From Phycisphaerales bacterium (GTDB taxonomy: Bacteria > Planctomycetota > Phycisphaerae > SM23-33 > FEN-1343): a DNA stretch of 64,000 nucleotides. The notes below the pieces were generated by a model. It ran no database searches, was not told the DNA's origin, and saw only the letters and a list, made by a program, of their open reading frames with translations. Numbering within the stretch: the stretch's first letter is position 1; every line of letters begins with the position of its first letter. Both the position numbers and the translations under genes were made by a program. The stretch lies in the NCBI GenBank assembly GCA_003171335.1, contig PMYD01000082.1, forward strand, positions 1-64,000, given 5' to 3'. Below, one piece after another: positions 9 through 21,690 of the stretch.

Positions 9-80
9 CACAGGCTAAAAGCCTGTGCCACCATCCCTCCGGCCGTTAAATTTGAAATTTGAAATTTGCAATTTGAAATT
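9..80. repeat. word-like inverted repeats at window start
   Basis: Positions 9-27 form a perfect hairpin with arms CACAGGCT and AGCCTGTG around AAA. This is family F5, which recurs at 10497, 13336 and three times inside the gene at 19076. Positions 48-80 hold a short-period run of AAATTTG words. No coding signal is seen before the gene at 277. Confidence 0.8.
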
Positions 81-276: not shown

Positions 277-2205
277 ATGGTTCAGCGCGCGGCAGTGGGA
301 TTCCTGGTGGCCAGTTGGCTGCTGGGCATGGCCTATGCCGCGCCACCCCTGGCCGACCGCCTGCCGGCCGAGTCGATTTTGTATGTCGGCTGGGCGGGCA
401 GGAACATGGCCTTTGACGGCTCGACTCTGGGCCAACTCCTTGCCGAGCCGAGCGTTACAAGCTCCATCGCCGCCTGGGGCCAGGCCCTCACCGCCGGGGC
501 CAGGCCGGCGATTCGCCAGCAGGTTTTAGAACACGAGTTGACGATGCTGTCCATCGGCTGGAAGCACCGCATGGCCTTTTGCCTGCTGGGGGCCGCCCCC
601 GGCGCAGTCGCCGCAAGAGAGGGCTCGGCCGGGATGATCCTGCTGATCGACCTGGGCAAGGACCAGCCGGCCTTCGCCGAACACTTCGAGGCGCTGCTGC
701 GGCTCGGGGGCGAGAAGCTGGCGATCAGCGAGGCCACGGCCGCCGGCGTGACGTATCGCACGTTTCACCTGCCGCAACTGGCCTGGCCTGTGGCCTACGG
801 GTACGCCGGCGACATGCTCTTCATCACCGCGGGTGAGGATACGCCGGCCCGGCTGATCGCGGTCATGGCCGCGGCGGCGGCGAACCTCACGGGCGCAGGG
901 GCCTTCGCCACCGCGTATGCCGAGGTATCGGGCGAGAACGAGCAGTGGGTGCTTTACGCGGATATGCCCCGGGTGTTGGGCGTGCTGCCCGGCGCGCCGG
1001 CGGAAGCGGCCCAAAGCGGCCCGGCCGCCGGCCCGGCGGAGAAGCTTTTGGAGGCCCTTGGGCTTGACAAGGTAACGCAGGTAGTTGCATCCACGAGAGT
1101 TATAGACCGCGGCATGTACACGCGCATGCGTATCGCCATGCCGCCAGCGCACCGGGGGCTGGCGCTGCTACTGGAGGGCCCGCCACTGGCGGCCGCCACA
1201 GACCTGGCGGGTGCACCCGCTGACACCCAGGCCGTCCTGGCCTGCCGGTTTTCCATCGCGGCGGCGTGGACGCAGGTCCGCCAGGTGCTCTTGGCGCTGG
1301 GGGAACACAGGAGCGATCGGCTCGACTTGTCGCTGGCGGCACTGGATGAGCGGCTGGGTTTGTCCCTTCAGGATGATGTGCTGGCGAATCTGTCGCAACC
1401 GTGGATGATTGTCTCGGCGCCCTCGCTGGGGGGAATGGGCACCGGCACGGCATTCATCGCCACGGTGAAGAGCCCCGACAAGCTGCGCGAGCAACTGGCC
1501 TATCTGCGGGCCTCCTTCGCCCCGGCCAGCCAGCCCAGCACACGCGAACGGGAGCGGCGGGGTGTGCCGGGGGCGCCGTCGATCGTGTCGCAGCCGGCGG
1601 GCAGGACGATGATCACGTACCTGCAGTTGCCCGGCGCGTGGTCGATCGCACCGGCCTGTGCGGTTTACGAGAACCAGCTCATCGGGGCCGGCTGGCCCCA
1701 GGTCGTGCAGGACCTGATCGAGCGCGATGCCAATACGTCCCTGGCCGCACAGCCGGCCCTGGCGGCCGCCTTGCACTACGTTACCGACAAGCCCGTCCTG
1801 CTGGCGTACCTGGACACGCCGCGGATCGCCCCGCTGGCCTACGGCTGGCTCCTGTCGCACTGGACCGATGTCGCCAATCGCCAGTCGCGGGAGGGGACCT
1901 TCCTGCGGCCCGGCTGGCTGCCCAGCCTGAGCCTCCTGACGAGGTTCATCACGCCCAGCGTGCTGGCCGTCAGCGTGGATGATCGCGGCATCCTGATCGA
2001 GGATTACGGCTGGATCGCGGCCATTCCCACGGCGGCGGCGGGCGTTTTCGCGGGGGACTACATGGCGCCGCTGCTGGGCGAGTCGGCGGGGCGGCCGCGC
2101 TCGTTCGGGCCGGTGCTCGAGGAGTTCCTCTCGGACCTGTCGCGCCTGCCGCATCGCCGTCCGCCGGCCTCGCGACCCGCGACGGCGGCCAGCCAGCCGC
2201 ATTGA
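277..2205 (+). CDS. secreted hypothetical protein, DUF3352-like
   Basis: The 642-residue protein starts with a signal peptide: basic start, hydrophobic core and an AYA-AP type cleavage site near residue 22. AGGAG at 266-270 supports the ATG. The mature part opens with a LPAESILYVGWAG motif, which I know from large secreted planctomycete proteins resembling DUF3352, whose function is not established. The rest is a mixed alpha/beta sequence with no catalytic motif I recognise and no C-terminal anchor; it ends in a Pro/Ala/Arg-rich tail. It converges with the TIGR03790 gene across an 11-bp gap. The family assignment is inferred from general resemblance. Confidence 0.75.
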   Translation: MVQRAAVGFLVASWLLGMAYAAPPLADRLPAESILYVGWAGRNMAFDGSTLGQLLAEPSVTSSIAAWGQALTAGARPAIRQQVLEHELTMLSIGWKHRMAFCLLGAAPGAVAAREGSAGMILLIDLGKDQPAFAEHFEALLRLGGEKLAISEATAAGVTYRTFHLPQLAWPVAYGYAGDMLFITAGEDTPARLIAVMAAAAANLTGAGAFATAYAEVSGENEQWVLYADMPRVLGVLPGAPAEAAQSGPAAGPAEKLLEALGLDKVTQVVASTRVIDRGMYTRMRIAMPPAHRGLALLLEGPPLAAATDLAGAPADTQAVLACRFSIAAAWTQVRQVLLALGEHRSDRLDLSLAALDERLGLSLQDDVLANLSQPWMIVSAPSLGGMGTGTAFIATVKSPDKLREQLAYLRASFAPASQPSTRERERRGVPGAPSIVSQPAGRTMITYLQLPGAWSIAPACAVYENQLIGAGWPQVVQDLIERDANTSLAAQPALAAALHYVTDKPVLLAYLDTPRIAPLAYGWLLSHWTDVANRQSREGTFLRPGWLPSLSLLTRFITPSVLAVSVDDRGILIEDYGWIAAIPTAAAGVFAGDYMAPLLGESAGRPRSFGPVLEEFLSDLSRLPHRRPPASRPATAASQPH

Positions 2206-18867: not shown

Positions 18868-19041
18868 ACAAGGCTGAACACAAAGATCACGAAGACCACA
18901 AAGAGCACGAAGTAAAGACGAGAGAGAGCAACGGCCGGATGTTTTCCTGCTTTTGCTCTCTCTTTTTCCTGGTCTTTCTTAGCTCTACTTTTCTTCTTCC
19001 TTCGTGTCCTTTGTGATCTTTGTGGTCTTTGTGTTCGCTGT
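18868..19041. repeat. F1 long inverted repeat
   Basis: The CACAAAGA arm (18868-18917) and its complement (18985-19041) enclose a loop that itself contains GAGAGAGC...GCTCTCTC. The element ends just before the amidohydrolase ATG, so it lies in that gene's 5-prime leader. Confidence 0.85.
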
Positions 19042-19075
19042 TTTCTTCAGACCGACCACCCATTACGCTACCCGC

Positions 19076-20722
19076 ATGGCAAACCCCACATTAGCCATCC
19101 TCAACGGCCGTATCTGGTCCAACGGGCCGGCCACCGCCATCGCCCTCGCGGGCGATCGAATAGTCGCCGTCGGCAGCGATCGCGAGATCCGCTCGCTGTG
19201 CAGCGCCGAAACCCGCATCCTCGACGCCGCCGGCGGCAGCGTTCTGCCCGGTTTCAACGATGCCCACGTGCACCTGGAATCTTCCGGCGGCAACCTGCTT
19301 GGGATCGACCTGCGCGAGGCCCGCGATGAGGCCGATTTCGCCCGCCGGCTGGGCCGCTACCTGGCCGACCAGCCCGCCGGCCGCTGGATCCGGCGGGGAA
19401 TCTGGGACCACGAAAACTGGCCTTCGCACCGCCTGCCCACACGGCAAGTGCTCGATCCGGTCAGTCCTCGCCACCCCGTCTTCCTCAGCCGGCTGGATGG
19501 CCACGTGGCCGTGGCCAACAGCCTAGCCCTGGCAGCGGCGAAGATCGACCGCCATACCGCCGACCCGGCCGGCGGCCGCATCGGCCGCGAGTCCGACGGC
19601 ACGCCCAACGGCCTGTTCTTCGACACCGCCTTGGCGCTGATCCGCCAGGCAATGCCGGCGGCGACGGAATCCGACCGGCTGGAGGCGATCGAAACCGGCC
19701 TGCGGCACGCCGCCGCACACGGCCTGACCAGCCTCCAGGCGATGTGCGGCACCGGCGAATACGACCTGCTGCGCCGGCTGGAACAATCCGGCCGCCTGCC
19801 CATCCGCGTGAGGGCGATCTTGCCGCCGGAGGTCCTGGATGGTGGCACAGGCTTTCAGCCTGTGGCCGGCCGGCAGGAAGAGAATCCACAGGCTGAAAGC
19901 CTGTGCCACCTCAAAAAAAGCCCACAGGCTGAAAGCCTGTGCCACCAGGGATTTCTTCGCACCGGGGCGATCAAGCTCTTCGCCGATGGCTCCTTCGGCG
20001 CCGCCACGGCGCTCCTCTTTGAGCCCTACGACGACCGCCCCGACTCTTCGGGCCTGGCCATTTACGAGCCGGGCCAGCTCGAGGAGTTGATTGGCCGCAT
20101 CGACGCCGCCGGCCTCCAGGCGGCGGTGCACGCCATCGGCGACCGCGCCGTGGACAGGGTGCTGACCGCCTTCGAGCGTGTGCTCGCCGCCGGCGGCCGC
20201 CGGCAGGCCCGCCACCGCATCGAGCACGCGCAGATGGTTCGCCCGGCAGACCGCGCCCGCTTCGGAGCCGCCGGCCTGATCGCCTCGATCCAGCCCTCGC
20301 ACTGCATTGACGACCTGCGCTGGATTTCCAACCGCCTCGGCGGCCGCTGCCGCATGGCCTACCCCTACCGGTCGCTAGCGGCCGCCGGCGCGCCCATCGC
20401 CTTGGGCACCGATTGGGACGTCGAACCTCTAAACCCGATGCTCACGCTCTACGCCGCCATCACCCGCCAAACCACCGCCGGCGACCCGCCGGCCGGCTGG
20501 TTTGCCGATGAAACGGTGACACTCGCCCAAGCCATCCGCGACTACACCTTCGGCTCGGCCTACGCCGAATTCGCCGAGGCCGACAAGGGCACGCTCGAGC
20601 CCGGCAAGCTCGCCGACCTGGTCATCCTCTCACGCGACATCGCCGCCTGTGCGCCCGCCGAATTGCTCGCCACCCGCCCGCGCGCGACCATCGCCGGCGG
20701 GCGCGTGGTGTTTGAGGCGTAG
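19076..20722 (+). CDS. amidohydrolase family 3 (YtcJ-like) with repeat insertion
   Basis: This metal-dependent hydrolase has GFNDAHVH (residues 59-66, the HxH site), IKLFADGSFGAAT, HAIGDRAV, RHRIEHAQ and LGTDWDVEPLNPM, which together give the YtcJ subgroup of amidohydrolases. The substrate is unknown. Codons 257-289 are made of three copies of the F5 hairpin repeat read in frame (TGFQPV, then QAESLCH twice). They sit just before the IKLFADG strand, between conserved blocks, so the insertion probably forms a surface loop. The long frame before 19076 is repeat sequence. No signal peptide is seen. Confidence 0.87.
   Translation: MANPTLAILNGRIWSNGPATAIALAGDRIVAVGSDREIRSLCSAETRILDAAGGSVLPGFNDAHVHLESSGGNLLGIDLREARDEADFARRLGRYLADQPAGRWIRRGIWDHENWPSHRLPTRQVLDPVSPRHPVFLSRLDGHVAVANSLALAAAKIDRHTADPAGGRIGRESDGTPNGLFFDTALALIRQAMPAATESDRLEAIETGLRHAAAHGLTSLQAMCGTGEYDLLRRLEQSGRLPIRVRAILPPEVLDGGTGFQPVAGRQEENPQAESLCHLKKSPQAESLCHQGFLRTGAIKLFADGSFGAATALLFEPYDDRPDSSGLAIYEPGQLEELIGRIDAAGLQAAVHAIGDRAVDRVLTAFERVLAAGGRRQARHRIEHAQMVRPADRARFGAAGLIASIQPSHCIDDLRWISNRLGGRCRMAYPYRSLAAAGAPIALGTDWDVEPLNPMLTLYAAITRQTTAGDPPAGWFADETVTLAQAIRDYTFGSAYAEFAEADKGTLEPGKLADLVILSRDIAACAPAELLATRPRATIAGGRVVFEA
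19846..19941. repeat. three F5 hairpins inside the amidohydrolase gene
   Basis: Perfect CACAGGCT/AGCCTGTG hairpins lie at 19846-19864, 19888-19906 and 19923-19941. The first is in the opposite reading orientation to the other two. The inserted DNA contains no stop in the gene's frame. Confidence 0.9.
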
Positions 20723-20735
20723 CATGGGCCGCGTC

Positions 20736-21042
20736 TTTTCGGAAGCCCGCAGGGCATAACGATATGCCGAGCTATTGACGTGCCGTGCTTCTTATGATCC
20801 GTCCCTGCATTTTCCGGGAGCCCGCAGGGCGACTGAAAGTAGCCCCTGGCGCTGGCCGACGCGCAGCGCCGGCCGAGCCTGGGGAAACGCGGGACGGATT
20901 GATCATCCCGTCTTTTTCGGGAGCCCGCAGGGCGACTGATAGTAGCCCCTGGCGCTGGCCGACGCGCAGCGCCGGCCGAGCCTGGGGAACGCTAGACGGA
21001 TTCATCTTCCCCATCTCTTCCGGGAGCCCGCAGGGCGACTGA
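20736..21042. repeat. REP-like repeats, left side of the transposase
   Basis: Two near-identical units of about 72 bp lie at 20813-20885 and 20918-20988. Each has a short hairpin (GCCC-GCA-GGGC) and then a GC-rich imperfect palindrome from CCCCTGGCGCTGGCC to GAGCCTGGGG. A unit truncated after the first hairpin lies at 21018-21042, and a degenerate fragment at 20736-20756. The region fills the gap before the transposase gene. Confidence 0.85.
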
Positions 21043-21047
21043 GCCGC

Positions 21048-21500
21048 TCAACCCCACATCGTCTCGGGATCAAACGGAATGTGGTGCCGTTTCAGGAACG
21101 CAATGAATTCCTCTTCATACGTCACCTTACGGTGATGCTCCGCCTGGCCGGCAATGTATGATTCCACATCCGGCCGAATGGAATCCGCCACCGTGAACGC
21201 GGCGTAACCCTGTTGCCACTTGAAACGATCCTTGGGCTTGAGCGTTCGATTCACCCATCCGGTCGTGAGGCTCTTGAGCTTCCCCACCGCCGTCGGAACG
21301 CCTATCGGCGGCCTCAACGAGATCAGCGCGTGCAGGTGGTTTTCCGTGCCGCCCAGGGCCAGGGCGCAGCCGAGTTCCTTCTTGGCAACGCCGCCGGCAT
21401 ATTCGTACAGGCGGTGCTGAAAATCCCGCGTAATGAGCGGCCGGCGGTCCTTCGTGCTGAAGATGACGTGATAGAGCAGGTGCGTGAATGTGTGGCTCAT
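21048..21500 (-). CDS. REP-associated tyrosine transposase (IS200/IS605 Y1 type)
   Basis: The 150-residue single-strand DNA transposase has the Y1 fold. H55 and H57 form the HUH motif in ENHLHALISL, and Y115 in ESYIAGQAEHH is the likely nucleophile. The N terminus SHTFTHLLYHVIFSTKDRRP is typical of the branch I know as REP-associated (RAYT). No accessory TnpB is present. The gene is intact and flanked on both sides by inverted copies of a repeat, as expected for a RAYT and its REP elements. Confidence 0.88.
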   Translation of the reverse strand: MSHTFTHLLYHVIFSTKDRRPLITRDFQHRLYEYAGGVAKKELGCALALGGTENHLHALISLRPPIGVPTAVGKLKSLTTGWVNRTLKPKDRFKWQQGYAAFTVADSIRPDVESYIAGQAEHHRKVTYEEEFIAFLKRHHIPFDPETMWG

Positions 21501-21616
21501 GGGGACTCCCGTAAACAGAGTTTGGAACCGGGAGGTTAGCGGGGCGGTCGCGAGGTGTCCACAGAATTGGGGGACTCAATCGCCCTACCGGGCTCCGACC
21601 TCTGGGGGCCTCGGTT

Positions 21617-21690
21617 TCCCCAGGCTCGGCCGGCGCTGCGCTTCGGCCAGCGCCAGGGGCTACTTTCAATCGCCCTGCGGGCTCCCGGAA
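21617..21690. repeat. REP-like repeat, right side of the transposase, inverted
   Basis: A full unit of the same repeat as at 20813 lies here in the opposite orientation (from CCCCAGGCTCGG to GGCTCCCGGA). The transposase gene is therefore bracketed by inverted copies. Confidence 0.85.

Follow-up and report, generated by a model that had tools for sequence, protein, structure and literature searches.

The window, by which we mean the whole 64,000-nucleotide stretch of Phycisphaerales DNA analyzed here, contains an intact gene, tnpA, for an HUH/Y1 transposase. The gene lies on the minus strand amid two direct repeat units, a lone head hairpin, a fragment, and one inverted unit. The parts of the locus are as follows.

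20745..20755, plus strand: head hairpin h standing alone (GCCCGCAGGGC), left over from a further unit (from the sequence; direct-repeat family D1)
20820..20884, plus strand: full unit 1, consisting of head hairpin h1, linker, GTAG, and long palindrome P (CCCC...GGGG)
20923..20987, plus strand: full unit 2, in tandem with a period of 103 (covariance model R1, 26.4 bits, E 4.6e-6)
21026..21036, plus strand: inner h2, the third head hairpin, immediately adjoining the tnpA stop on its 3' side (D1 copy 21010-21042)
21048..21500, minus strand: tnpA, HUH/Y1 single-strand DNA endonuclease/transposase of 150 aa, subclass 1.2 type
21582..21593, minus strand: inner head h2', a degenerate hairpin (minus-strand sequence GCCCGGTAGGGC; from the sequence, repeat D5)
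21618..21682, minus strand: inverted full unit upstream of tnpA, with the outer h1' at 21672-21682 (covariance model R1, 25.2 bits, E 1e-5)

In each of the three full units, a linker joins a small head hairpin (GCCC-GCA-GGGC) to GTAG, which forms the foot of a long, imperfect palindrome, P (CCCCTGG...CCTGGGG). A repeat search recovered the same arrangement: 77-nt copies at 20810-20886 and 20913-20989 are 97% identical with a period of 103, a partial fourth head copy (20729-20761) precedes them, and an inverted repeat, I1 (21614-21690), is 97% complementary. The Y1 reading frame is intact (150 aa, ATG at 21500, HLH at residues 55-57, Y115). The earlier note's description of an intact Y1 transposase, with two full units, a truncated one, and a fragment on one side and an inverted full unit on the other, is thus borne out by both the sequence and the repeat search, as is its view of the unit as a short hairpin joined to a longer palindrome. 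What it took for a truncated unit is the head at 21026..21036, and an inner h2 is a regular part of such cassettes elsewhere; the degenerate head at 21582..21593, absent from its list, occupies a position that fits h2 of other cassettes.

A covariance model derived from other loci recognized each of the three full units of the window, with E values from 5e-6 to 1e-5 (25.4 bits and E 8.7e-6 for unit 1), and no other match in the window fell below E = 0.2. The folding energies of single units did not differ significantly from those of shuffled sequences (z of -1.1 to -1.6), because the sequence is very GC-rich; the support for the window units is comparative and not thermodynamic. The neighbors of tnpA encode an amidohydrolase and an unknown protein, and no TnpB lies alongside. 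The highest-scoring protein matches point to a host within Planctomycetota.

The protein matches PF01797 with 72 bits and the NCBIfam IS200-type model NF033573 with 56.7 bits (cutoff 55). It carries the motifs NHLH, WQ (W95, Q96), and YIAGQAEHH, and Y115, Q119, H122, and H123 were invariant in alignments of 21 and 46 homologs. Y---Q--HH is the signature of TnpA_Y1 subclass 1.2, whereas class-2 TnpAREP/RAYT proteins have Y---NP (Quentin et al. 2018, PMC6006769, Table 1), which is not present in the window TnpA in the alignments of homologs. According to the same table, WQ in the W motif is common to most REP-associated subclasses, while IS200 has W[TS]. The length of about 148-150 aa, the low copy number, and the divergence of the paralogs are likewise those of subclass 1.2 (PMC6006769). 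Against NF047646 (REP_Tyr_transpos; cutoff 80), the window TnpA gave no match at E 1e-3 and its paralogs scored 13-27 bits or gave no listed match, compared with 179 bits for E. coli RayT; with the IS200-type NCBIfam model, the paralogs reached 50-68 bits. BLAST detected no significant similarity between the window TnpA and E. coli RayT. In a profile search of solved structures, the significant matches were all IS200/IS605-type TnpA, and in a fold comparison of the AlphaFold2 model (pLDDT 89), 29 IS200/IS605-type TnpA chains came first and TnpAREP 4er8 came 30th. A small tree set four class-2 proteins apart at 100/98 and placed IS200 in its own group at 93/97; the subclass-1.2 set did not come out as a single clade. 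Motifs, profiles, fold, and tree together thus argue for a subclass-1.2 TnpA rather than a class-2 RAYT.

The earlier note had regarded the locus as a classical class-2 RAYT (TnpAREP) with ordinary GTAG REPs, a reading that the GTAG foot, the inverted flanking units, and the dispersed extragenic pairs described below would fit. Since the protein has Y---Q--HH instead of Y---NP, fails to match the model that detects E. coli RayT, is nearer in fold to 29 IS200/IS605-type chains than to TnpAREP, and is separated from class 2 in the tree, and since units elsewhere mostly carry ATAG or TTAG and an extra GNA hairpin, we consider this reading highly improbable. In the strict sense, the label RAYT has to be given up.

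The repeat is by no means confined to the locus. BLAST with one window unit found at least 33 places in the genome (40 of the 100 candidates were scored). A covariance model of the 45-nt core, based for the most part on flanking sequences from other genomes, gave at least 161 matches at E <= 1, and merging these with the BLAST family brought the number of units to about 163 at least. The genome has seven subclass-1.2 tnpA genes, namely, that of the window and six others, whose products are single, divergent paralogs with 92, 58, 47, 42, 38, and 32-35% identity to the window protein. All seven are bracketed by inverted h-P-h units that belong to several sequence families but share one layout; the closest, on contig C45 (92%), is bracketed by an almost identical unit. 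Most of the dispersed units are attributable to a single tnpA family.

Among neighboring units within 300 nt of each other, 61 of 66 pairs are inverted and oriented as around the gene, about 2 pairs being expected by chance, and the gaps of the inverted pairs cluster in two narrow classes of 92-121 and 143-159 nt. When genes were called simply from GC3, 89 of 118 units proved to be extragenic; genes cover 82% of the sequence, so 18% would be expected to lie outside them. Their gene context is tandem in 49 cases, convergent in 29, and divergent in 10, and the sequence beyond h1 is not conserved among dispersed units. The gene-less inverted pairs would therewith represent REPIN-like miniature versions of the cassette. 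The earlier note had proposed a REP-generating arrangement, to be checked by a genome-wide count and a search for intergenic inverted pairs, and the flanking inversion, the genome-wide dispersal, and the predominance of extragenic inverted pairs all agree with that proposal.

These findings also bear on the possibility of an ordinary IS200/IS605 insertion sequence whose ends are alike by chance, toward which the nearest profile and fold might seem to point. Such elements have asymmetric subterminal hairpins, but the ends here are copies in inverted orientation; no TnpB adjoins; the paralogs are single and divergent instead of near-identical and multicopy; gene-less units far outnumber genes; and a close full-length relative occurs in only 2 of 72,556 plasmid records. 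Of the alternatives that we weighed, this is the least probable.

A comparison with 37 other genomes of the order, 27 with the gene and 10 without, addressed whether relatives lacking the transposase carry as many copies, which the earlier note had named as an outcome speaking against it. The median number of units was 34 in carriers and 0.5 in noncarriers (p = 1e-4, kinship ignored), and the association persisted at p = 5e-4 once two flanking units per gene were subtracted; the difference runs against that outcome, with the caveat that members of one order share ancestry and do not count as independent data points. Units are nevertheless present in three genomes in which no gene was detected (G028, 36; G012, 9; G036, 7), and these could be incomplete assemblies or decayed systems. 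G028 is an 86% complete assembly of 790 contigs, in which the gene may have been lost, may not have been assembled, or may be absent while the units are kept. Planctomycetes bacterium Pan216 (G042), an isolate with a complete genome, has 84 units, which are therefore no metagenome artifact. At C1:5288001-5289234 of Pan216, inverted unit pairs stand in tandem, four in a row, with a period of 346 nt.

The architecture extends well beyond the order. A scan of genome contigs provided 80 named loci from Planctomycetota, Verrucomicrobiota, Acidobacteriota, Bacteroidota, Desulfobacterota-type, Calditrichota, Chlamydiota, Nitrospirota, Chloroflexi, and other phyla (Cyanobacteria not among them), and a strong inverted flanking repeat was present in 61 of the 79 with usable flanks. 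The order within the cassette is a 5-bp GNA-loop hairpin, a 9-nt linker, TAG, a hairpin of 8 bp with a 4-nt loop, about 23 nt, and a second GNA hairpin. TAG with a directly adjoining 8-bp hairpin occurred in 131 of 212 flank arms from our own, related, and named loci, compared with 1.0 expected in first-order Markov-shuffled flanks and 3 of 195 windows about 1 kb away. The loop of P is 4 nt in 138 of 157 instances, the tag points toward rather than away from the gene at a ratio of 157:32, and its variants are GTAG (54), ATAG (51), TTAG (37), and CTAG (7). Upstream of the tag stands a 5-bp hairpin with a 3-nt loop (5-3-5 head); among the 77 arms with such a head, the linker to TAG measures 9 nt in 56 and 10 nt in 16 (72/77). 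The second hairpin lies about 23 nt beyond P, and both h1 and h2 carry a GNNNG 3' motif. An alignment of 54 units showed a GNA head loop in 44 of them and a P loop of the form GNNA in 39 or TNNA in 15, the final A of this loop never varying. Covariation counts on this material (alignment A2) are descriptive only and partly circular, because the arms were chosen for complementarity.

GNA and GNNA loops with G-C closing pairs form extraordinarily stable DNA minihairpins, as described by Hirao, Yoshizawa et al. and cited in PMC4686876. Such loops point to single-stranded DNA as the working form of the unit. DNA energies calculated with ViennaRNA scored h1 equally on both strands and were uninformative regarding strand preference; the strand argument therefore rests on loop identity and the literature. 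As a cleavage site, C|T or C|A within the GNNNG motif was rejected: only 13/52 and 20/52 arms have C[AT] at nt 3-4. We therefore claim no cleavage position.

The generality of the full unit is narrower in Bacteroidota, the group from which subclass 1.2 was originally described and where TAG-P was present in only 8 of 60 subclass-1.2 arms, so that the double-hairpin unit is characteristic of other phyla and not universal. At loci L240-L269, from the phylum of a Bacteroidetes metagenome-assembled genome (MAG), several genes show inverted head hairpins, with GGTAG or ATAG about 10 nt further on, but no P (e.g., L247, L249, L254, and L255), which reads as a reduced or ancestral form of the unit. 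That many Bacteroidota members have only the head and TAG agrees with the published classification, which lists subclass 1.2, mainly from Cyanobacteria and Bacteroidetes, as having no REP (PMC6006769). Unlike published subclass 1.2, most members in Planctomycetota, Verrucomicrobiota, Acidobacteriota, and others are flanked by units.

Across 59 loci, the identity of the proteins to one another is correlated with that of their units (Mantel r of 0.34, 0/2000 permutations), and the left and right arms within one locus agree at 84%, versus 57% between loci. Units could in principle be preexisting hot spots into which TnpA cassettes insert, rather than products of TnpA, since gene-less units exist and some occur in genomes without the gene. 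Against this stand the separate unit family of each tnpA family, the co-variation of protein and unit, and the scarcity of units where the gene is lacking; we rate the hot-spot explanation as very unlikely, if a little less so than a class-2 RAYT.

The paralogous loci, and not the window alone, brought to light a link with Rfam family RF01687, Acido-Lenti-1. Units of the paralogs on contigs C168 and C16 and of Pan216 exceed its gathering score at the same coordinates but on the opposite strand (51.6-56.7 bits for the C168 and C16 units; threshold of 37 bits); for example, the unit C168:38941-38985 on the minus strand corresponds to the RF01687 match C168:38941-38986 on the plus strand. The window units themselves did not match RF01687 at E <= 1, the window stretch giving chance matches only; their enlarged imperfect P leaves them below the RF01687 threshold, yet the broader covariance model matches them. 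In two further sets of tnpA loci, RF01687 matches occur at 17 of 20 (chosen for clean arms) and at 8 of 18 (more divergent), nearly all of these matches adjoining the gene. The host genome has 83 matches, and 14 control genomes have none. Within the order, genomes that carry the gene have a median of 22 copies and those that lack it 0 (p = 3e-4). The phylum of the Bacteroidetes MAG (G041) was represented by 248 genomes; the gene is present in 18 of the 22 that have an over-threshold match, compared with 87 of the 226 others (Fisher p = 9e-5). Read on its opposite strand, the canonical unit is the "Acido-Lenti-1 RNA" of Rfam, the same 45- to 46-nt DNA at identical coordinates.

Acido-Lenti-1 was proposed in 2010 as a probable noncoding RNA, its function not being known (PMC2864571), and in a 2026 Tannerella paper it is still described as little known, with its matches read as regulatory RNAs (PMC13298647). 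The units might accordingly be functional structured RNAs, either Acido-Lenti-1 RNAs or terminators, beside which a transposase merely inserts; Rfam does class the family as an sRNA, and the units are rarer between divergent genes, as are RNA 3' elements and also REPs. Because the units come in inverted pairs, half of them would then sit on the wrong strand, and it is the strand opposite to the Rfam model that bears the GNA (44/54) and GNNA (39/54) loops typical of ultrastable DNA minihairpins (PMC4686876); moreover, flank position, spacing, and unit family co-vary with the protein. Although it is the likeliest of the alternatives, we still hold it to be very unlikely. Acido-Lenti-1 is instead probably not primarily an RNA but a putative single-stranded DNA recognition unit of widespread subclass-1.2 REPtrons, serving a transposase element as its end or REP. 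The two hairpins of this substrate, a GNA minihairpin and an NTAG-footed hairpin at a fixed 9-nt spacing, would form a combination that is not used by described TnpAREP or IS200 systems. The Acido-Lenti-1 literature, as far as its text was accessible, contained no link to a transposase; the supplements of PMC2864571 might hold an earlier hint.

Taken together, our results make it likely that the locus is a REPtron-like selfish element, in which a subclass-1.2 TnpA is bracketed by inverted cognate units of the form h1-linker-TAG-P-spacer-h2, with mobility and cleavage attributed to it by inference. Its architecture, the dispersal, inverted pairing, and extragenic position of its units, the co-variation of protein and unit, and the association with the gene across genomes were computed directly. 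In the literature searched, we found no description of such a subclass-1.2 REPtron-like element. The earlier note was thus right about the kind of system and wrong about the family, and the finding extends beyond a single RAYT locus.

Binding, cleavage site, single-strand intermediate, and mobility can be envisaged by analogy with the biochemistry of TnpAREP and IS200 (PMC8266576). When the strand turns single-stranded, for example, as lagging-strand template, two hairpins would fold, P and the minihairpin h with its GNA loop, and TnpA may recognize P and its TAG foot, located at a fixed 9-nt distance from h1, with TAG possibly serving as the guide in the manner of GTAG in TnpAREP. Tyr115 might then cleave near the head-linker, after which the ends would be rejoined. 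Copying or shuffling of units could give rise to h-(P-h)n tandem arrays (e.g., 20745-21036) and to dispersed inverted pairs, and gene-less inverted pairs would be REPIN-like miniature derivatives of the cassette.

Class-2 RAYT/TnpAREP systems with their REPs and REPINs (subclasses 2.2, 2.4, 2.5, 2.7, and 2.8; PMC6006769, PMC3116915) resemble this element in having an HUH/Y1 protein, inverted tagged palindromes that bracket the gene, dispersed extragenic inverted pairs, a cognate family per gene, and low-copy chromosomal genes; REPINs in particular share the short palindromic, gene-less inverted pairs. The present lineage differs in belonging to class 1 with Y---Q--HH, in its NTAG tag, which is not only GT[AG]G, and in a unit that adds a 5-bp GNA hairpin on the tagged side, with a fixed 9-nt spacing, and another behind P. 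IS200/IS605 TnpA (IS608, ISDra2) is nearest in fold and profile and has ends in which a 4-nt guide precedes a hairpin on the 5' side; unlike these elements, the window cassette has no TnpB, has inverted near-identical ends, and is accompanied by many gene-less units. A study of the GTAG repeats, REPtrons, and TIRtrons of Rhodopirellula baltica (PMC3733652) noted planctomycete Y1 genes flanked by repeats, among which there may be members of the present group; its available text describes neither a double-hairpin cassette nor an NTAG tag and gives no subclass and no link to RF01687.

The element adds a REP-making transposase lineage that the standard classification counted as REP-free. The results suggest that subclass-1.2 REPs could be missed because the search required GT[AG]G, two thirds of the tags being ATAG, TTAG, or CTAG. 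The orphan Rfam family RF01687 gains a concrete, testable identity, and its matches should not be taken for regulatory RNAs, as in the Tannerella paper (PMC13298647). The fixed hairpin-linker-hairpin geometry and the DNA-specific GNA loops would offer a compact, regular substrate for HUH recognition and the spread of REPs, and the seven parallel gene/repeat systems in one genome are natural tests of specificity.

The earlier note had also suggested the window transposase as a candidate mover of other repeat families in the window. This is not supported: the palindrome family that was checked, GTGGCACAGGCTTTYAGCCTGTG (6 matches in the window), has a class-2 candidate mover of its own on contig C118. 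There, at C118:26-779 (L048), copies of the GTGGCACAGGCT palindrome (26-48 and 53-75, plus strand; 757-779, minus strand) enclose a class-2 Y1 domain (NHAH...YMCDNP), and we regard this gene as a candidate mover of the GTGGCACAGGCT family; the window TnpA was rejected in that role, the family having a different tag and its own class-2 gene. The class-2 Y1 domain on C118 seems to continue into a leucyl-tRNA-synthetase-like frame, which is either an odd fusion or a question of the gene start. The genome holds 135 copies of GTGGCACAGGCTTTCAGCCTGTG (67 + 68), of which 6 match in the window, and a reversed-pattern control gave 0; it looks like a GTGG-tagged class-2 REP that invades coding sequence. 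Three GTGGCACAGGCTTTCAGCCTGTG palindromes at 19842-19945 of the window lie in frame inside the amidohydrolase open reading frame (19004-20722), with the peptides GTGFQPV and PQAESLCH. Further class-2 Y1 genes at C137:56112-56345 (L049), C137:62716-62931 (L052), and C88:14199-14363 (L050) are bracketed by other inverted repeats (GGTGCCACGGCTG..., GTGGCATGCCC...). Subclass-1.2 and class-2 systems, each with its own inverted repeats, therefore coexist in one genome.
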